Assembly: GCA_004195715.1 (NCBI GenBank)
Contig: PSPX01000008.1
Coordinates: 1 to 50,938 of the forward strand
From: Methanobacteriota archaeon
GTDB taxonomy: Archaea; Thermoplasmatota; Poseidoniia; Poseidoniales; Thalassarchaeaceae
Direction: 5' to 3'
DNA length: 50,938 nucleotides
The stretch's first letter is position 1. The number at the start of each line of letters is the position of its first letter. The notes below the pieces were generated by a model, which was not told the DNA's origin, did not search any database, and saw only the letters and a list, made by a program, of their open reading frames with translations. Shown one piece after another: positions 2,817-11,781 of this stretch. The translations under genes and the position numbers were made by a program.

Positions 2817-4010
2817 TCAAGAATCGTGCAATAGTGACTCCACGGCCTCACATAGATCGGCGTCGTCACGCATTACCAGTACGGTGCCGTCTGGTAGTAC
2901 GATGCGGCCTCGAGGGGAGTCTTGATCATGCACCTCCTCCTTCAGATTAGCCACTACAGCATCGACTCCATAACGCTCAATTTGTTGCCTCGCTCTATCG
3001 ATTAAAACTTCCACGGAAACCCCCGTCTCCAGTTTGAAACCTATTCTCCTAGCACCGCTAACGAATGGTGCAATCTCGGAGATATGCTTAGGTCCCTCGG
3101 TCAATGAGATATCCCATGATTTATCGCCGCTGGGCTTCTTCTCACTCAGAGGCTCGGTGAAGTAATCCAACACGGCTGCTGAGTATATCCAAGCATCGGG
3201 CTTTGGATCGGATGAAGCAACCTCCAAGGATACAGCCAGCATTTCATCCGGAGAGCCGCCCCTTCGTACGTCGGGTAATGTGAATTCTGGTGCTACTGAA
3301 GTTTTTCCGGCTATGCAAATCACTCTGTGCCCCATTCTGTGGAGATATTGTGCAATGGTCCATCCAGTAGATCCTGACGAAGCATTCTGAATAGCCCTCA
3401 CTGCATCGATTGGAGCTCGGTTGGCCCCTAGGGTAATCGCAACAACCTTCCTGTCGGGCAACTCTGAATTTACTAAATTGCATAACTCAGCTACGATAGA
3501 AACAGCATCTGGTTGCTTTCTTCGACCTTCCTGTGGTTCTTCGAACATAACTGCACTTCCCTCATCACGTAGGGCAGCAATATGTTCCGAAGTTACTGGG
3601 TCATCGAACAGGTCAGAATGCATTGAGGGTACGAATAGCATTGGAGTCTCGTTACCGCGGGCTGCAGAAAGAGCCATTGTTGCAGGAGAGTCGATGAGTC
3701 CGTGAATATGTTTTGAAATGGTGTTCCTCGTGGCTGGAGCAACTAGTATTGCATCATAATCATCTAATTGCGCCATCTTATGATCCCATCCAGTCAAAGC
3801 CGTGGTTCCCGAAGCCCATGACAATGCCAGTGGAGTGATGATCTTCTCAGCCTCACTGGTCATGAGGATACTGAGTACTGCTCCATGGCGTCTCAGCTCC
3901 CTCGATAGCCTCACAGATTCCACTGCTGCAATGCCACCAGTGACAACAAGTAATACTCGATGATTTGCAAGGCTACAGCCACGAGATTCTACATCGGCGT
4001 CGTCGACCAT
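2817..4010 (-). CDS. coaBC: Bifunctional phosphopantothenoylcysteine decarboxylase / phosphopantothenate-cysteine ligase
   Basis: Coenzyme A synthesis: ligates cysteine to phosphopantothenate and decarboxylates the product. The 397-residue protein has an N-terminal flavoprotein (CoaC) half with VTGGIAAVESVRLSREL and DAILVAPATRNT, and a CoaB half with LGANRAPIDAVRAIQNASSG and KKPSGDK. The bacterial active-site motif PxMNxxMW reads PSMHSDLF here, and the bacterial Cys-containing lid is replaced by an EEPQEGRRK stretch. Replacements of this kind are usual in archaeal CoaBC, so I do not read them as loss of function. The start at ATG 4010 (MVDDADVES) is preferred over an upstream extension with no similarity. 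It heads a pair with proS and is divergent from a membrane protein at 4085. Confidence 0.93.
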   Translation of the reverse strand: MVDDADVESRGCSLANHRVLLVVTGGIAAVESVRLSRELRRHGAVLSILMTSEAEKIITPLALSWASGTTALTGWDHKMAQLDDYDAILVAPATRNTISKHIHGLIDSPATMALSAARGNETPMLFVPSMHSDLFDDPVTSEHIAALRDEGSAVMFEEPQEGRRKQPDAVSIVAELCNLVNSELPDRKVVAITLGANRAPIDAVRAIQNASSGSTGWTIAQYLHRMGHRVICIAGKTSVAPEFTLPDVRRGGSPDEMLAVSLEVASSDPKPDAWIYSAAVLDYFTEPLSEKKPSGDKSWDISLTEGPKHISEIAPFVSGARRIGFKLETGVSVEVLIDRARQQIERYGVDAVVANLKEEVHDQDSPRGRIVLPDGTVLVMRDDADLCEAVESLLHDS

Positions 4011-4084
4011 GTATATGCGAGAGCACGGGGCTTCATGAGTGCGTCGACAAAGGAAAAGTATTCTTTGCGAGGGGTAATCGGGAC

Positions 4085-4642
4085 ATGGGGCCTGGTAGGA
4101 TGGAGTTGCTGCACAGGCATCTAACAAGGTTCATCGCAATCGATGTAGTGTTGTTGATACTGCTGTTGACTACAATGGGTAATTCGGGGTCGGCCTCAAT
4201 ATTCGTGTTCTATATGCTTCTTGGCTTGGTACTGATACCATTGGGCATAGTTTCGGTAATCTCTATGCTAAGACGTAGCCCTAGTGGTATTAATCTAGGA
4301 ATAGCCAGCCTTGGATTCACTGGTGCTGCATTTTTGTTGCTTGGAGTATTAGGTGGTATTAGCTATCTAACAGGAGGGAGTACGGAAATTCTACTTCCAG
4401 TAGTTCTAATCCTACTGGGTACCTCTACACTGAAGAAGATACCAACAATGAAGAATCCATCATATGATTTGTGGTACAGAGGGGAAAATAGTTCTCAACA
4501 TTCTAGAAATGAATTTGAACAAGAGGTCTTAGCAACTTGTCCATCATGTCATAGCGTTTTGGCGGTATTTCCCAATCAATTATCAATTAACGACATATGT
4601 CCGAATTGCAATGAAGGGTTGGTATATTCTGAAGAGGAGTAA
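4085..4642 (+). CDS. Multi-TM membrane protein with C-terminal zinc ribbon
   Basis: Unrecognised protein of about 185 residues. The first ~110 residues carry three to four hydrophobic helices (FIAIDVVLLILLL, IFVFYMLLGLVLIPLG, FTGAAFLLLGVLGG, LLPVVLILLG). A soluble tail follows, with a four-cysteine zinc ribbon: CPSC, 16 residues, CPNC, then an acidic end (EEE). ATG 4085 (MGPGRMELLH) or 4100 (MELLHRH) are the likely starts; a longer frame back to 3965 would overlap coaBC on the other strand and looks non-coding. The stop abuts the thiolase stop exactly (TAATCA). A membrane-anchored nucleic-acid- or protein-binding zinc domain is possible, but no function can be assigned. Confidence 0.7.
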   Translation: MGPGRMELLHRHLTRFIAIDVVLLILLLTTMGNSGSASIFVFYMLLGLVLIPLGIVSVISMLRRSPSGINLGIASLGFTGAAFLLLGVLGGISYLTGGSTEILLPVVLILLGTSTLKKIPTMKNPSYDLWYRGENSSQHSRNEFEQEVLATCPSCHSVLAVFPNQLSINDICPNCNEGLVYSEEE

Positions 4643-5776
4643 TCATGGGGTTTCCAAAGCGATAGCTATCCCCATACCTCCTCCTATGCACATCGTGGCA
4701 ATTGCCCTTTTGGAATTTGTTCGTCTGAGGAGAGATGCTGCTTTCCCAGTAATTCTCACCCCTGAAGCACCTAAAGGATGTCCTAGCGCTATGGCACCAC
4801 CATCAATATTGATCTTTGATGCCTCCAGCCCCAACTCTGAGATTACAGCTAGACTCTGAGAAGAGAACGCTTCATTTAATTCGTATAAATCAATAGATTC
4901 ACTGTCCCATCCAGTTCTCTCCAATACCTTCCTAGTGGCTTCAACGGGCCCGATGCCCATAATCCCCGGCGGACATCCACTCACTGCACCCGAAACAATT
5001 CTCGCCATAGGATTGAGTCCTCTTTCAGAAGCAAATTCCTCGCTACAGACAATCATAGCAACCGCACCGTCCGTGAGTGGAGATGATGTTGCAGCGGTAA
5101 CCGTACCGTTTTCGGAAAATACTGGCTTTAGTCCGGACATTGCATCTAAGGTTGAGTCTGACCTAATGCAACCATCCACTTCGATGATTGTTTCTCCGTC
5201 AATTACCGGAATAATTTCATCATTGAATCTACCTTCCTCAAAAGCAGTTGTAGCTTTGATATGAGATTCTAGTGCGAAAATTTGCTGTTCTGCTCGTCCT
5301 ATCTCCCAATCATCTGCAATGTTCTCTGCTGTTTGACCCATGGTGACGTATGCTTCTGGCCAACCGAGTTCAAGACCAGGGTGGGGGCTCCAATTGAATC
5401 CCCTACGCTTTACCCTACTCATTGATTCAACGCCCGCACACAAGTAACAATCGCCCCAACCCGATTCGATATTTGCTGCGGCTGACAACACGGCCTGCAT
5501 TGAAGATCCACACAGTCTGTTGAAGGTCATTCCTGGCACACTGTCGGGCAAACCTGCTAGGAAAGTGACCAGTCTACCTATGTTGTATCCCTGTTCGGCC
5601 TCTGGATAACCGCATCCCATCATAAGGTCGTCAAAATCGGCTGCATCGATATCGTTCCTGGCGATTAAACCCTTGACTATCTGACTAGCCATGTCATCTG
5701 GACGGAGTCCGCGCAACTCCCCCTTGTGAGCCCTGTGAAAGGGAGAGCGGGCCCAATCCACGATTACTGCTTTCAC
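4643..5776 (-). CDS. Thiolase (acetyl-CoA C-acyltransferase family)
   Basis: Condenses or cleaves acyl-CoA thioesters. The 377-residue protein has the complete thiolase catalytic set: nucleophile Cys89 in NRLCGSS, His333 in GGAIALGHPLGASG, and Cys363 in MCIGGGMG. The thiolase-typical NEAF motif (YELNEAFSSQ) is present. It could be a degradative FadA-type beta-ketothiolase or an acetoacetyl-CoA thiolase feeding mevalonate synthesis; sequence alone does not decide. It starts with GTG at 5776, where translation immediately gives the conserved KAVIVDWARSPF. An AT-rich candidate promoter (ACAAATAACC, 5797-5806) lies about 25-30 nt upstream of the start, opposite kptA. Confidence 0.93.
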   Translation of the reverse strand: MKAVIVDWARSPFHRAHKGELRGLRPDDMASQIVKGLIARNDIDAADFDDLMMGCGYPEAEQGYNIGRLVTFLAGLPDSVPGMTFNRLCGSSMQAVLSAAANIESGWGDCYLCAGVESMSRVKRRGFNWSPHPGLELGWPEAYVTMGQTAENIADDWEIGRAEQQIFALESHIKATTAFEEGRFNDEIIPVIDGETIIEVDGCIRSDSTLDAMSGLKPVFSENGTVTAATSSPLTDGAVAMIVCSEEFASERGLNPMARIVSGAVSGCPPGIMGIGPVEATRKVLERTGWDSESIDLYELNEAFSSQSLAVISELGLEASKINIDGGAIALGHPLGASGVRITGKAASLLRRTNSKRAIATMCIGGGMGIAIALETP

Positions 5777-5882
5777 GGACTGACGGCTGAGTGTTCACAA
5801 ATAACCATTGACCAGTGAAGGATGATAGATAGCGCTCGACCGAGAGGTTCATGAGAGGTATTACTCTCGAAAATCTGATACT

Positions 5883-6572
5883 ATGATTAGAGAGTGTACC
5901 AATCACGGCTACTACGCCGATGACCACCTATGTCCTGCATGTAATTCTGAAGGGAAATTCATCATGAGAACGGGGGAGAGAGACAGTATGGCGAGACGTC
6001 TAGCACTGGTCCTCAGGCATGCACCAGAAAAGTTTAATCTGGAAATGGATATTAACGGCTGGATAGATGTCAAGGACATAGTCAAGCAGTTCAAGGGCTC
6101 GAATGAAAAGAGATACCACTGGCTCAGGCCTCATCACTTTCGAGCAATCTCAGAAACAGATCCAAAGGGCAGATATGAGGTCAGAGGGAACATGATTAGA
6201 GCCACATACGGGCACACATTAGAAATCGAGTTGGACTTACCAACTGATAACATCCCAGAGGCCCTGTATTATCCCTGCTCGCCGGATGAGTGCGACAATC
6301 TGCTAGAGTTGGGCGTGGAACCAAGTGGTCGCTCACATGTCCACTTATCGGCATCCATTCGCTCTGCGGCAGAGGCCGGACATGTTCATCACACACTTCC
6401 AACTCTGCTTGAGGTTGATACTGCTAGGATGGTTGCTGCGGGTGAGACCATATGGCATGCTGGCATTACCGTGTACCTAGCAGACAAAGCTCCAGCAGAG
6501 TACTTGTCAGTCGTTGCCAACGACCACCCTGAGTACGAATTGGCTAGGGTGCACTGGGACGAAGAGGAGTAA
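5883..6572 (+). CDS. kptA: Probable RNA 2'-phosphotransferase (Tpt1/KptA family)
   Basis: KptA/Tpt1 removes an internal 2'-phosphate from RNA using NAD+, giving ADP-ribose 1'',2''-cyclic phosphate; in eukaryotes it finishes tRNA splicing. The 229-residue protein starts with a small Cys/His knuckle (CTNH...CPAC, residues 5-20), then the KptA fold: LVLRHAP (catalytic Arg-His), DINGWIDVKDIV, IRATYGHT (conserved Arg), GRSHVHLSAS (conserved Arg and His) and VYLADKAPAEYLSVV. The usual LYHGT motif of the NAD site reads LYYPCS here, so the His-Gly-Thr is lost. Family membership is clear, but activity should be treated with caution. The stop abuts the stop of the zinc-ribbon gene (TAATCA). Confidence 0.9.
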   Translation: MIRECTNHGYYADDHLCPACNSEGKFIMRTGERDSMARRLALVLRHAPEKFNLEMDINGWIDVKDIVKQFKGSNEKRYHWLRPHHFRAISETDPKGRYEVRGNMIRATYGHTLEIELDLPTDNIPEALYYPCSPDECDNLLELGVEPSGRSHVHLSASIRSAAEAGHVHHTLPTLLEVDTARMVAAGETIWHAGITVYLADKAPAEYLSVVANDHPEYELARVHWDEEE

Positions 6573-6956
6573 TCAGCGGTACTCACCGCATGCTGGACAG
6601 AAGTCCAAATCCTCGCTAACAGTAGCTTCGCAGTTCTTACAAACTGAATCGTTTGATACTGCAGTGGTAGTGACACTCTCATCCTCGACCAACCTTACTG
6701 AAGAGTCTCTTTCGGCAAAAGGAGGAGGTATATCGCCTCCATCTACTGTGATAATCTGTCTGTATTGAATTGCAAGTTGAATGGCCGATTCAATTTGCTT
6801 GGTGGCTCTGCTTCTCTCAGTTGGGTCCTCAATCTGCTCAACGATAGTTAACCTAGCCTGCAACCATCTCTGGAACTGTTCTATTGCCTTACCGTCATCC
6901 ACATAGCCCTCACGGGGGCTCCCGTCATAAACTACGGGAGAGGCTAAGTCATGCAC
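6573..6956 (-). CDS. Small zinc-ribbon protein of unknown function
   Basis: A 127-residue protein I do not recognise. Residues ~20-75 are a predicted helical region rich in Gln, Glu and Arg (FQRWLQARLTIVEQI, RATKQIESAIQLAIQYRQ). A Pro-rich linker follows (GGDIPPPFAE), then a C-terminal zinc ribbon C-x2-C-x10-C-x2-C (CKNC...CPAC) and a short GEYR tail. It is transcribed divergently from isopentenyl phosphate kinase; the alternative upstream starts of that gene would overlap this one by a few bases. Zinc ribbons of this size often mediate protein or nucleic acid contact; nothing more specific can be said. Confidence 0.7.
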   Translation of the reverse strand: MHDLASPVVYDGSPREGYVDDGKAIEQFQRWLQARLTIVEQIEDPTERSRATKQIESAIQLAIQYRQIITVDGGDIPPPFAERDSSVRLVEDESVTTTAVSNDSVCKNCEATVSEDLDFCPACGEYR

Positions 6957-6977
6957 CTCATGGCAACAATGAGTAAT

Positions 6978-7769
6978 ATGCCCAGAGTCATAGTGAAACT
7001 TGGTGGAGGACTCATAACCGACAAGTCGCTATACAGACAGGTCAGATTGGACCGCGTTGATGCAGTATCTGCTGTCATTAGGGAACTGAAGGATTCTGGA
7101 TACTCTGTAATCATCGTCCACGGAGCGGGTTCCTTCGGACACTTAGAAGCAAGGAAATGGAAGCTATCAGAAGGCTACAACCGAGATATCTCCAAAGAGC
7201 AGGCGAATGCTGTAACTAGAGTTCGTTCAGACATGGACGACCTCAATGAATACATTGTGAAGTCCCTAATGAATGCCGGAGTTGAATGCGAAGTTATGCC
7301 GCCCCGAAAGTGGGCTACAGGAGTGGGTGTTGAGTTTCAAGGTGAATTGGATATGTTCGTTCGAGATCCAGCACTACCAGTTCCAATTACATTCGGCGAT
7401 GTGGTAGAAACATCGGACGATACCAGATTTGGCATCCTATCAGGAGACCACATCATGGTGCGTCTAGCATGCGAGATGCCTGATGTATCTGCATGCGTCT
7501 TCCTGTTAGGCGATGCGGATGGCCTCATGGACAGGCCGCCCGACGAGCCCGGTGCTGTGCTACTGCCTACATGGAAGTCGGACCAGAGTTTTTCGGAATC
7601 TCATAATCCGGATATTGATATAACGGGAGGAATTATGCTGAAGGTTCGTTGTGCATCCCTGATAGCCCGTGACGTAGAACATGTATGGCTGCTTGACGGA
7701 ACAGTTCCTAGAAGAATAATTGATATTGTATCGAGAGGAGATACAGTAGGAACTAGGATACTGCACTGA
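6978..7769 (+). CDS. ipk: Isopentenyl phosphate kinase
   Basis: Phosphorylates isopentenyl phosphate to isopentenyl diphosphate, the last ATP step of the archaeal mevalonate variants. The ~263-residue protein belongs to the amino acid kinase fold: VIVKLGGGLITDK at the N-terminus (phosphate-binding Gly-rich loop and Lys), HGAGSFGH with the His that marks IPK, and DADGLMDRPP and DITGGIMLK near the C-terminus. Four in-frame ATGs lie between 6951 and 6978. I chose 6978 (MPRVIVKL) because homologues begin right before this strand and it avoids overlap with the divergent zinc-ribbon gene. It is followed after ~70 nt by the IDI/prenyl synthase fusion gene, the next steps of the same pathway. Confidence 0.93.
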   Translation: MPRVIVKLGGGLITDKSLYRQVRLDRVDAVSAVIRELKDSGYSVIIVHGAGSFGHLEARKWKLSEGYNRDISKEQANAVTRVRSDMDDLNEYIVKSLMNAGVECEVMPPRKWATGVGVEFQGELDMFVRDPALPVPITFGDVVETSDDTRFGILSGDHIMVRLACEMPDVSACVFLLGDADGLMDRPPDEPGAVLLPTWKSDQSFSESHNPDIDITGGIMLKVRCASLIARDVEHVWLLDGTVPRRIIDIVSRGDTVGTRILH

Positions 7770-7807: not shown

Positions 7808-7818
7808 GATTATATGCG
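7808..7818 (+). promoter_or_regulatory. Candidate archaeal TATA box for the IDI-prenyl synthase gene
   Basis: GATTATATGCG lies 22-32 nt upstream of the ATG at 7840. That is the expected spacing of an archaeal TATA element for a leaderless or nearly leaderless transcript. It is the most convincing TATA-like sequence in the window. Confidence 0.5.
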
Positions 7819-7839: not shown

Positions 7840-9528
7840 ATGACCGAGCATGGAGAGTCGGAAATTCTCGAGGGACATGATCGGTCTCAAGCTGATATGA
7901 TGTCCGAAAACTGTATACTCGTTGACTCGAATGATTGTGCCATCGGTTCTGCAAGCAAAATCGAATGTCATCTCGGACTAGGCAAGCGACACAGAGCATT
8001 CAGCGTACTACTGTACGATGATAGTGATAGGTTATTGGTTCAGAGGAGATCTCTCGAAAAGATTACTTTTCCTGGTGTCTGGGCAAATACTTGCTGCAGT
8101 CACCCTCTCGATATCGTTAATGAAAATGGAGACTCCATAGATGGCGTGATTGCTGCGGCTAGAAGAAAACTTGTCCAGGAATTGGGCTTCGATGCTTCGA
8201 AAGTCTCCGAATGGAGTTTTGCTCACATTGGCTCTTTTGAGTACAGCTGCAGGTGGGATGCGAACTGGATGGAGCATGAAGTTGATCACGTATTGGTAGT
8301 TCGCGCTAATGCAAATGCACAACCAAATCCGAATGAGATATCTGAACTGCGCTGGCTCGACCCTGGAGAGTTATCAGAGATGATTGATGGGGTGGGGCAC
8401 TGGCAGAACCAATCTGTAGCACCATGGTTCAAGATGATCTGGGAGCATTTTCTAGTATCAAACCACCCTAAGATTCCGACATCACAGGATGTCAAGTCTA
8501 TCATCAGATGCGGAGAATTGCAAATGAATACAACTGAAATTCCTGGGCAATCCCTGTTGGATGCGTTGAGCATTCACCGTGATATCGTCGAGGAGGTCAT
8601 TATGAGCAGTCTTGGTAAGATGAAGCAAGAGAGATTACATGGCGCGATGACTCACCTATTCGCCGGAGGAGGAAAGAGGCTCAGGGCTATCCTGCCGCGC
8701 TTGGTCGGAGAAGCCGTAGGAGACGTCCATGAAGGCCACTATACCTTGGGGGCCTGTATAGAGATAATTCACAATTTCACCCTTGTGCATGATGACATCA
8801 TGGATCAGGATCCAATTCGCAGAGGTCTAGAAGCAGTCCATGTCGCATATGACGATGCAACGGCCATCAACGCTGGTGATGCTATGCTCGCCGTAGGATT
8901 CGAGATTCTAGCAGAATCGCCACATATACCGAATGATAAACTAGCGTTCTTAGTCAGTTCGATAGGTGAGATGGTCAGGAAGGTCGCCGAGGGACAGATG
9001 GTGGACATAGAGTTCGAAAATCGTGAAGAAGTGAGCGAAGATGACTATATTGCCATGATAGCAGGAAAGACTTCGGCTATGTTCGAGACTTGCGCAATGA
9101 CCGGGGCCAAGCTGGCTGGTGCGAATGATGATGCTGTGGAGAACATGGCCAAGTGGGGATTGAATCTAGGATTGTGCTTCCAGATGATGGATGACTTGAT
9201 TGACATTACCGGAGACACTCAAACACTAGGAAAGCCCGCTGGATCTGACATTGTCCAAGGTAAGAGGACTCTGATTGCAATACACGCCCTAGAATGTGAT
9301 GCCGTGCTACCGATGTTCACAAAGGTGTTTGGAGCTGGTGAATGTAGTGATGAAGATCTCACTAAAGCGGTTGGTGAATTGCATTCCAGTGGCTCCATAG
9401 ACTATGCCAAGGAGCGAGCTATGCATCATCATTCTCTCGCCCATAGTTGCCTAGACAAACTGGAGAACGGTCCAGCATTGTCTATTCTTAGAGAATTAAC
9501 TGACTTCCAGTTGATTCGCATCAACTAA
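7840..9528 (+). CDS. Fusion: type I isopentenyl-diphosphate isomerase + polyprenyl (GGPP-type) diphosphate synthase
   Basis: One 562-residue protein joins two consecutive isoprenoid enzymes. Residues ~24-215 are a Nudix-fold type I IPP isomerase: RRSLEK, TFPGVWANTCCSHP with the catalytic Cys86 equivalent, the Nudix-like segment ending RRKLVQELGF, and acidic residues in WMEHEVDH. Residues ~238-562 are a trans-prenyltransferase: GGGKRLRA, the first Asp-rich motif DDIMD at 318-322 with Phe five residues before it, the second motif DDLID, and GKPAGSDIVQGKRT. The IDI half makes DMAPP from IPP; the synthase half condenses these, presumably to geranylgeranyl diphosphate for archaeal lipids. No stop or frameshift separates the halves. 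It lies directly downstream of isopentenyl phosphate kinase. Product chain length is inferred, not shown. Confidence 0.93.
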   Translation: MTEHGESEILEGHDRSQADMMSENCILVDSNDCAIGSASKIECHLGLGKRHRAFSVLLYDDSDRLLVQRRSLEKITFPGVWANTCCSHPLDIVNENGDSIDGVIAAARRKLVQELGFDASKVSEWSFAHIGSFEYSCRWDANWMEHEVDHVLVVRANANAQPNPNEISELRWLDPGELSEMIDGVGHWQNQSVAPWFKMIWEHFLVSNHPKIPTSQDVKSIIRCGELQMNTTEIPGQSLLDALSIHRDIVEEVIMSSLGKMKQERLHGAMTHLFAGGGKRLRAILPRLVGEAVGDVHEGHYTLGACIEIIHNFTLVHDDIMDQDPIRRGLEAVHVAYDDATAINAGDAMLAVGFEILAESPHIPNDKLAFLVSSIGEMVRKVAEGQMVDIEFENREEVSEDDYIAMIAGKTSAMFETCAMTGAKLAGANDDAVENMAKWGLNLGLCFQMMDDLIDITGDTQTLGKPAGSDIVQGKRTLIAIHALECDAVLPMFTKVFGAGECSDEDLTKAVGELHSSGSIDYAKERAMHHHSLAHSCLDKLENGPALSILRELTDFQLIRIN

Positions 9529-11736
9529 TCAATCGGTGTATTGAAGCTCGTCTGGAATCTCTGACTTCAGACCCTTGCGCTCCCTTATCTCTGCAGTGAC
9601 CTTGTGGAACAGGCTCGGAGGCAGATGGACGTATCCAGCATTCTCTGTGTTCCAAACCGCCCTTCCTTGAGTAGCTGCTCGGATATCATTAGAGAATCCA
9701 AAAGACTCTGCGACAGGCATGACTCCTATGACACTGGCCGTATTGCCCTCTATCGGCATGTCTTCAATTACTCCTCTACGTGTGGTGACTTCTCGAGTAA
9801 CGCCACCAATGACATCATTGGGTGCGTCAATTCTGATATTCTGAATGGGCTCGAAAATTACTGACTTAGAACGTAGTAGTGCCCCCTTGACCGCTTTACG
9901 TACAGCGGGAATTGTCTGCGCGGGGCCTCGATGGATAGCGTCCTCGTGTAACTTAGCATCAACGAGCCTGACCATTACGCCCATCAATGGCTCCTCAGCT
10001 ACTGGACCTTTCTTACATACGTCATTGAATCCCTCAATAATCAACTCACGTGTCTCATGTAGATTCTGAATTCCTTTGGTGTCATTCACTAGAACATTTG
10101 TTCCATTAATAGCGTAAATTTTGCGCATCAGATCCTTGTTCATACCGAACTCGGCGAACCTGTCTCCTATCCCCTTAGCATCTTTATTCCTAACTGCCCC
10201 ATCTCCGAAAGTACCCTCGCGTAGAGCGTCGGTGACGTCATCGGGAAGTGGTTCGGTCTCGATGTAGAAACGATTGTGTCTGTTTGGGGACTTCCCTTCA
10301 AAGGCACGTCCTGTGTTATTGGATGAAATTGATTCCCTGTACACCACTATCGGTTCACTGACTGTGACCTTTATTCCCTGCTCTTCCTCTAACCTGTATA
10401 CCGTGATCTCGAGGTGTAACTCACCCATTCCAGCTAGCAACGCCTCCCCAGTTTCTTGATTTGTGGAGACTTCAAGAGACGCATCGGCCTTACCGAGTGT
10501 TCTTAGAGCATCGATGAATTTTGGCAGATCCTTCATTGATTTCGGCTCTACTGCTACAGTTACCACAGGCTCAGAGTAATGTCGAATTGGTTCGAACGGA
10601 GTCGCGTCCTCATCCCGTGTAACCGTGACGCCTGCCGCTGCACTACGCACGCCAGTCAGTGCGACTATGTTACCAGAAGAAACTTCAGGGACCTGAATTC
10701 TATCACTGCCCACCATCATGCTCACCTGCTGTACACGCTCTGATTTGGCCCCTCCGAGGGCCCATACTGAATCGCCGTGCTTGATAGTGCCCGAGTAAAT
10801 CCGCCCAACGGCTACCTCCCCTGCATGTGGATCCATCCATATCTTGGTGATCATTAGCGATAGGGGGCCTTCTGAATCGCAACTAAGCATTGCCATACCG
10901 GTTTCCGATTCTAGATCACCCTGCCAGATATTGGGTATCCTGTACTTTTGCGCCACAATCGGTGAAGGCAGTTTATCTACAGCCATGTCAAGTAGAACTT
11001 CGTGTACAGGTGCTTTCTTGGCCAACTCCTTCTGTTCTTCGTTATGGCAATACTCGAAAATTTGTGTGAAATTCACACCTGACTTTTGCATGTATGGCGC
11101 GGTAATTCCCCAATTGTGGAACGCGGATCCGAACGCAACGGTTCCATCTAACACGCTAACCTGCCAGTCTATCTTGTGTTCGGGAGGTGCGAAAAGCCTA
11201 ATCAGAGTGTTTACCTTCGTGATCTGCTCTTCGAACCTGCTCATCATATCTTCAGGAGTAACTTGTAGTTCGTTAATCAGACGATCTACCTTGTTGATGA
11301 AAAGAACTGGTTTTACCTTCTCCTTGAGTGCCTGCCTAACAACAGTCTCTGTCTGTGGCATAGCACCTTCTACCGCACAGGTCAGTATGATGCATCCATC
11401 TACAGCCCGCATCGCCCTTGTGACATCGCCACCAAAATCGACGTGACCGGGTGTGTCGATGAGATTGATTAGGTAGTCATCAGTTCCTACTGTGTGTACC
11501 ATTGAAGCACTGGCTGCATTGATTGTTATTCCTCGAGCACTCTCCTGGTCGTCAAAGTCCAGCACGCGTGACTTACCTGCTAACTCCTCTGACATCATGC
11601 CCGCACCTGCTATCAGATTGTCCGACAAAGTGGTCTTGCCGTGATCTATATGCGCTGCTATTGCTAGGTTCCGAATTTTCTCGCGATCGTGCATGACTTC
11701 GGTCGCTCGCTTGATGTTGTCTTCCTTACGACCCAT
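9529..11736 (-). CDS. fusA: Translation elongation factor 2 (aEF-2)
   Basis: The GTPase that drives ribosomal translocation. The 735-residue protein has G1 AHIDHGKTT, G2 ARGITI, G3 DTPGHVDF and G4 NKVD in domain I, and the archaeal/eukaryotic C-terminal domains. The diphthamide loop DAIHRGPAQ places the modifiable histidine at about residue 602. The start is ATG 11736 (MGRKEDNIKRA); the frame upstream shows no similarity. It is last in the order uS12-uS7-aEF2, 104 nt after uS7, so it may have its own promoter. A TTCATAAA element (plus-strand reading) lies at 11774-11781. The usual downstream EF-1 alpha is absent; the stop abuts the IDI fusion gene instead. Confidence 0.97.
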   Translation of the reverse strand: MGRKEDNIKRATEVMHDREKIRNLAIAAHIDHGKTTLSDNLIAGAGMMSEELAGKSRVLDFDDQESARGITINAASASMVHTVGTDDYLINLIDTPGHVDFGGDVTRAMRAVDGCIILTCAVEGAMPQTETVVRQALKEKVKPVLFINKVDRLINELQVTPEDMMSRFEEQITKVNTLIRLFAPPEHKIDWQVSVLDGTVAFGSAFHNWGITAPYMQKSGVNFTQIFEYCHNEEQKELAKKAPVHEVLLDMAVDKLPSPIVAQKYRIPNIWQGDLESETGMAMLSCDSEGPLSLMITKIWMDPHAGEVAVGRIYSGTIKHGDSVWALGGAKSERVQQVSMMVGSDRIQVPEVSSGNIVALTGVRSAAAGVTVTRDEDATPFEPIRHYSEPVVTVAVEPKSMKDLPKFIDALRTLGKADASLEVSTNQETGEALLAGMGELHLEITVYRLEEEQGIKVTVSEPIVVYRESISSNNTGRAFEGKSPNRHNRFYIETEPLPDDVTDALREGTFGDGAVRNKDAKGIGDRFAEFGMNKDLMRKIYAINGTNVLVNDTKGIQNLHETRELIIEGFNDVCKKGPVAEEPLMGVMVRLVDAKLHEDAIHRGPAQTIPAVRKAVKGALLRSKSVIFEPIQNIRIDAPNDVIGGVTREVTTRRGVIEDMPIEGNTASVIGVMPVAESFGFSNDIRAATQGRAVWNTENAGYVHLPPSLFHKVTAEIRERKGLKSEIPDELQYTD

Positions 11737-11773
11737 GACTAGACCTCTTAATGATGCGGCGACCTGACAACGG

Positions 11774-11781
11774 TTCATAAA
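11774..11781 (-). promoter_or_regulatory. Candidate TATA box for aEF-2
   Basis: On the minus strand this reads TTTATGAA, within GGCTTTATGAACC, and lies 38-45 nt upstream of the ATG at 11736. The 104-nt gap after uS7 makes a separate promoter for aEF-2 plausible. Support is by position and composition only. Confidence 0.35.

Follow-up and report, generated by a model that had tools for sequence, protein, structure and literature searches.

A near-fixed fusion of type I IPP isomerase and a GGPPS-type synthase in Poseidoniales, a probable bifunctional enzyme of lipid-chain synthesis

Here we report a gene that joins a type I IPP isomerase (IDI-1) to a trans-prenyl diphosphate synthase in one reading frame, and that is carried by nearly all genomes of the archaeal order Poseidoniales (Marine Group II). 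A bifunctional enzyme leading from IPP to GGPP, with both activities predicted from homology, is well supported. The N-terminal, eukaryote-type IDI-1 would convert IPP to DMAPP, and the C-terminal IdsA-type domain would add three more IPP to this DMAPP, giving GGPP as a precursor of archaeal ether lipids and of further products derived from C20. On the whole, such an enzyme, fused by way of an overlapping gene pair and coupling the supply of DMAPP to its use, is very probably the best explanation of the data. In the open-access literature searched, we found no report of an archaeal IDI-GGPPS fusion, and an earlier report elsewhere is possible.

Architecture of the fused gene

The gene is located at 7840-9528 on the forward strand of the window (the whole stretch of 50,938 nucleotides analysed here), in a genome assembly of 1.45 Mb that is 92% complete. 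It is an uninterrupted frame of 562 codons (562 aa) with an ATG start and an in-frame TAG directly 5' of this ATG. The isomerase core covers residues 20-204 (7897..8451, +), and the synthase domain of IdsA/GGPPS type covers residues 241-562 (8560..9525, +). Pfam detects NUDIX at residues 49-181 with 55.9 bits (cut-off 21.1) and polyprenyl_synt (PF00348) at residues 264-511 with 219 bits (cut-off 27), the latter being the only Pfam match of the C-terminal domain, with squalene synthase (PF00494) absent. In addition, the N-terminal part passes the NCBIfam model TIGR02150 (IPP_isom_1) with 145 bits against a curated cut-off of 105.8. Pfam and TIGR02150 thus bear out the sequence-only reading of a complete type I isomerase and a complete trans-prenyltransferase in a single frame. 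The same reading had placed the gene next to isopentenyl phosphate kinase (IPK), and the neighbour at 6951..7769 (+), separated from the fused gene by a 70-base gap, indeed scores 156 bits on NF040647 (NCBIfam; cut-off 120). On the other side, elongation factor 2 (EF-2; 9529..11778, -; Pfam) is the convergent neighbour.

Further upstream, a thiolase of the acetyl-CoA C-acyltransferase subfamily (4643-5776, -) and the RNA 2'-phosphotransferase KptA/Tpt1 (5883-6572, +) adjoin the cluster as conserved neighbours, and do so in the Poseidoniales genus g20 as well. Between KptA and IPK lies a gene (6573-6956, -) for a 127-aa protein with a C-terminal zinc ribbon, which is found at the same place in g20 with 30-32% identity. 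By eye, a TTATAT at 7810-7815, 25-30 bases 5' of the fused ATG, has a spacing that fits a leaderless archaeal transcript.

The AlphaFold model of the monomer has a mean pLDDT of 90.8 and a pTM of 0.77. Its N-terminal half matches human IDI1 (2i6k) with TMt of 0.83-0.86 and its C-terminal half matches archaeal GGPPS structures (both Foldseek); the synthase domain aligns with 1wy0 at Z 41.7 and rmsd 1.9 over 325 residues, and with 5jfq at Z 39.2. Human IDI1 (2i6k, 2dho) and the archaeal GGPPS (1wy0, 5jfq) share folds and catalytic residues with the two halves, but are free-standing. By analogy, the fused protein would form a homodimeric core of GGPPS type bearing two IDI domains.

An extra strand (residues 221-227) sits between the two Pfam domains in the model. 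Because a homologous stretch (residues 219-228 here; 8494..8523, +) forms the C-terminal end of the sister order's free IDI-1, we assign the strand to the IDI domain as its last strand, so the true linker comprises only about a dozen residues. The fusion point and this short linker correspond to residues 229-240 (8524..8559, +), with M229 at the place where free GGPPS begins in the unfused genus. Mean identity is lowest at residues 205-218 and 229-240 of the fused protein (17-22%, compared with 55% and 64% in the domains themselves), and these parts vary in length. The frame stays open across residues 205-240 in the window and in all full-length relatives aligned, with no stop or frameshift near residues 215-238, where such a defect had been considered.

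Predicted product and coupling of the two reactions

The synthase domain has both aspartate-rich motifs, DDIMD at residues 318-322 (8791..8805, +) and DDLID at residues 451-455 (9190..9204, +), together with the usual basic residues. Position -5 from the first motif is Phe313, and Phe is found at this position in every readable copy, fused or unfused. In archaeal GGPPS, Phe at -5 sets the C20 length, and for this reason geranylgeranyl diphosphate, the product named in the sequence-only reading, is likely. The domain misses the cut-offs of the GGPP synthase and IdsA equivalog models NF041003 and NF040698 (246 of 500 and 256.5 of 468 bits; NCBIfam), as do the synthases of the unfused relatives, and hence a C20 product is what we infer. 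The same genome has a GGGP synthase, and in addition a pair of adjacent squalene/phytoene synthase-like genes that come closest to HpnD and HpnC but stay under the curated cut-offs, located beside succinyl-CoA ligase genes (L217, G000:C40:50000-62000, ORFs 3928-5241 and 5290-6321, -). Such an HpnC/HpnD-like pair could need FPP, so the product of the fused enzyme may be mixed. The genome's second prenyl synthase (G000:C33; L002:1345-2325, -) has Ala at -5, which points to longer chains, and the sole IDI presumably feeds this synthase as well. It adjoins an FAD-dependent reductase (243-1340, -), geranylgeranyl reductase-like by eye.

A likely benefit of the fusion is that DMAPP supply and chain building are closely coupled; channelling of DMAPP, raised in the sequence-only reading, is only plausible, and a physical channel only possible. 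We lean slightly towards independent domains, for which joining would only fix 1:1 co-expression and save a start signal, with DMAPP diffusing freely and no channelling. This agrees with a junction that is the least conserved part and variable in length, with unfused pairs that are already overlapping genes, and with the presumed duty of the cell's only IDI to supply the second prenyl synthase too; against it, near-fixation over a diverse order hints at a benefit beyond expression, although retention alone is no proof. True channelling between active sites within the dimer is rather doubtful: the consecutive reactions in one chain, the short linker after the last IDI strand and the pTM of the monomer model speak for it, the variability of that linker against it. 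Co-expression or fixed stoichiometry accounts for the data equally well.

Type of the isomerase and its origin

Many archaea use the unrelated type II isomerase, and the sequence-only reading had pointed to a type I enzyme here as unusual. Our search agrees: IDI-2 (TIGR02151) is matched in 238 genomes, all of the same phylum and all outside the order, while among the genomes of the phylum searched no match is found in the window's genome, in Poseidoniales or in the sister order. Most of the remaining phylum has IDI-2, and in all five IDI-2 loci opened, IPK, IDI-2 and IdsA are neighbours on the same strand. This cluster of other Thermoplasmatota has the same gene order and pathway position as the locus studied here, with an IdsA homologous to the synthase domain, but it consists of separate genes and its isomerase is the unrelated flavin-dependent type II.

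The IDI domains of the fused proteins are 37-47% identical to human IDI1 and the sister-order proteins 46-51%, while eight other IDI-1 proteins of bacteria or Thermoplasmatota are 33-37% identical to it. E. coli IDI shares 25-30% identity with the IDI of the window, with that of a sister-order genome and with human IDI1. In the tree, the marine group and human are set apart from the other bacterial and Thermoplasmatota IDI-1 with support of 100/99. Judged by identity and tree, the IDI-1 of the fused protein is of the eukaryotic type; human is the only eukaryote in the set, so the direction of transfer is not readable from the tree. Elsewhere in the phylum, the handful of IDI-1 genes looked at belong to the bacterial type. 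In Haloarchaea and Thaumarchaeota, IDI-1 has been ascribed to bacterial donors (PMC3533463), unlike the eukaryote-type enzyme here. No viral carrier of the IDI domain was found, and plasmid IDI-1 genes are all below 60% identity (29-39% among the matches listed). A metal-only IDI-1 in place of the flavin-dependent IDI-2 would also do away with the need for reduced FMN in oxic water. A fuller scenario, in which the ancestor of the two marine orders gained a eukaryote-type IDI-1 that displaced IDI-2 in place and was then fused, with DMAPP preferentially channelled, seems improbable as a whole.

Several genomes of the window's family also have a second, free-standing Nudix protein resembling IDI-1 (G004:C13:2140-2622, G009:C79, G015:C18, G018:C34, G021:C14, G031:C12, G279:C11 and G388:C5). 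It is 28-34% identical to the fused IDI domain where measured and falls under the TIGR02150 cut-off.

Unfused relatives and the route to fusion

In the sister order, probably Marine Group III, all eight genomes have IDI-1 and, immediately 3' of it and on the same strand, a separate GGPPS gene, with a 4-base ATGA overlap in five and a 10-base overlap in three. Within Poseidoniales, genus g20 likewise has IDI-1 and GGPPS in two frames, and the overlap in its genome G386 is ATGA. The pairs of the sister order and g20 are homologous to the fusion halves, in the same order and on the same strand, and differ in being two overlapping frames (4 bases; 10 in the three sister-order loci). At the junction, the window reads GAATTGCAAATGAAT at the site of GTGTTAGAATGAGTT in G386; one base inserted in the ATGA overlap suffices to join the two frames, and the window retains a Met, M229, at the former GGPPS start. 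The three other g20 genomes give best E-values of about 1e-98 to 1e-106, as expected for a match to the synthase only.

This series of unfused and fused loci suggests that the fusion probably arose via an overlapping pair. An ancestral IPK/IDI-2/IdsA cluster would have lost IDI-2, IDI-1 would have come to lie directly 5' of IdsA, its stop overlapping the IdsA start in the four bases ATGA, and a frame change in that overlap, for which one inserted base is enough, would have fused IDI-1 to the synthase. One fusion with a later fission, two fusions, and an ancestral split would each fit the history of g20. Three trees place the genus near the base of the order without fixing its position, and in the EF-2 tree a grouping of the two families without g20 is not rejected (p-AU 0.25); fission and ancestral split are both possible.

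An internal start at M229, by which the fused gene would also give a free GGPPS, is unlikely. In the window, M229 sits where the unfused GGPPS begins and has a GGAG upstream with 8 bases between; on the other hand, no more than 15 of the 35 fused proteins have a Met near the fusion point, and just four (window, L004, L007 and L055) have it right behind the conserved GE-L/V-x motif. A conserved internal start as a general feature is ruled out by this scarcity.

Catalytic residues and conservation across the order

Alignment with E. coli and human IDI finds counterparts of E. coli His25, His32, Cys67, His69, Tyr104, Glu114, Glu116 and Trp161, whose catalytic and metal-binding roles we take from general knowledge of the E. 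coli enzyme. Among them, C86 (8095..8097, +) aligns with the catalytic Cys67, and E145 and E147 of the E145-H146-E147 stretch (8272..8280, +) align with Glu114 and Glu116. In 35 aligned fused proteins, H44, H51, C86, Y135, E145, E147 and W196 of the IDI domain are invariant, and H88 is kept in all bar one masked residue; so too are K279, R282, D318, D319, D322, K410, Q448, D451, D452 and K475 of the synthase invariant. Both active sites had been read as intact, and this conservation upholds that prediction. Consequently, an IDI domain that is catalytically dead or regulatory is very improbable, with all catalytic and metal-binding residues conserved, no other IDI found in the genome, and the fused domain its only IDI-1.

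Among 389 genomes of the phylum that were searched, the fused protein turns up in each of the order's two families. Of the 318 genomes of the order, 273, spread over 21 of 22 genera, match at E 1e-50 or better, so that the architecture, looked for in related genomes, is present there. At least 103 full-length, stop-free copies occur among the matches listed, a full-length copy being a match that starts within the first 20 residues and runs to the end with no internal stop. Candidatus Thalassarchaeum, among the nearest named relatives, is 72-74% identical over the fusion; such matches assign the window's genome to the Poseidoniales, and the name Marine Group III for the sister order has the same kind of basis. 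The single-contig assembly G037 carries a full-length gene. We used the adjoining EF-2 as a marker for the presence of the region in 14 genomes with the fusion missing or truncated: 11 without any piece of the fusion also lack EF-2, and the three with EF-2 keep a truncated fusion piece. As the genomes without any fusion piece lack the neighbouring gene too, we take the absences as assembly gaps, and the fusion is near-fixed across Poseidoniales.

Broken copies in a few relatives (G348 and G355) show that some MAGs carry errors at this locus, but with about a hundred genomes sharing the open frame, G037 among them, and with the EF-2 control, an assembly or frameshift artefact joining two genes is ruled out for practical purposes. 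Both were considered as real fissions. The G348 copy lies near a contig end and its IPK is frameshifted too, so it is probably an error; G355 has one TAA within its fusion match. The TGA inside some EF-2 matches is the terminal stop.

Outside Poseidoniales, a pattern-based genome scan, which reaches close relatives only, found no joined copy of the two domains except on L083 (NYYT01000056.1, 'Pedosphaera sp. isolate ARS72'), a contig that bears a verrucomicrobial label. Its fused gene falls inside the Poseidoniales tree, and the contig is probably mis-binned or mislabelled. Distant IDI-GGPPS analogues outside the close relatives are possible. Diatoms have IDI fused to squalene synthase, IDISQS (PMC6723447, PMC12168105). 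Like the gene reported here, IDISQS is a natural fusion of IPP isomerase to a downstream isoprenoid enzyme that is widespread in one group of marine plankton; unlike it, IDISQS is eukaryotic and presumably evolved separately, and its IDI is joined to squalene synthase instead of a trans-prenyl diphosphate synthase, so that the two reactions are not consecutive.

Implications

The IDI-GGPPS fusion is thus a natural, near-fixed one with living unfused intermediates. Fused and unfused versions can be compared directly to see what is gained by joining consecutive enzymes, and the fused enzyme offers isoprenoid engineering a ready-made part. In a group of uncultured archaea that are abundant in the ocean and ecologically major, a eukaryote-type enzyme appears to have displaced the archaeal type II isomerase at the first stage of lipid-chain synthesis. 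If the fuller scenario given above is true, one bifunctional lipid-chain enzyme would make, and preferentially channel, all DMAPP in some archaea that rank among the most abundant of the surface ocean.
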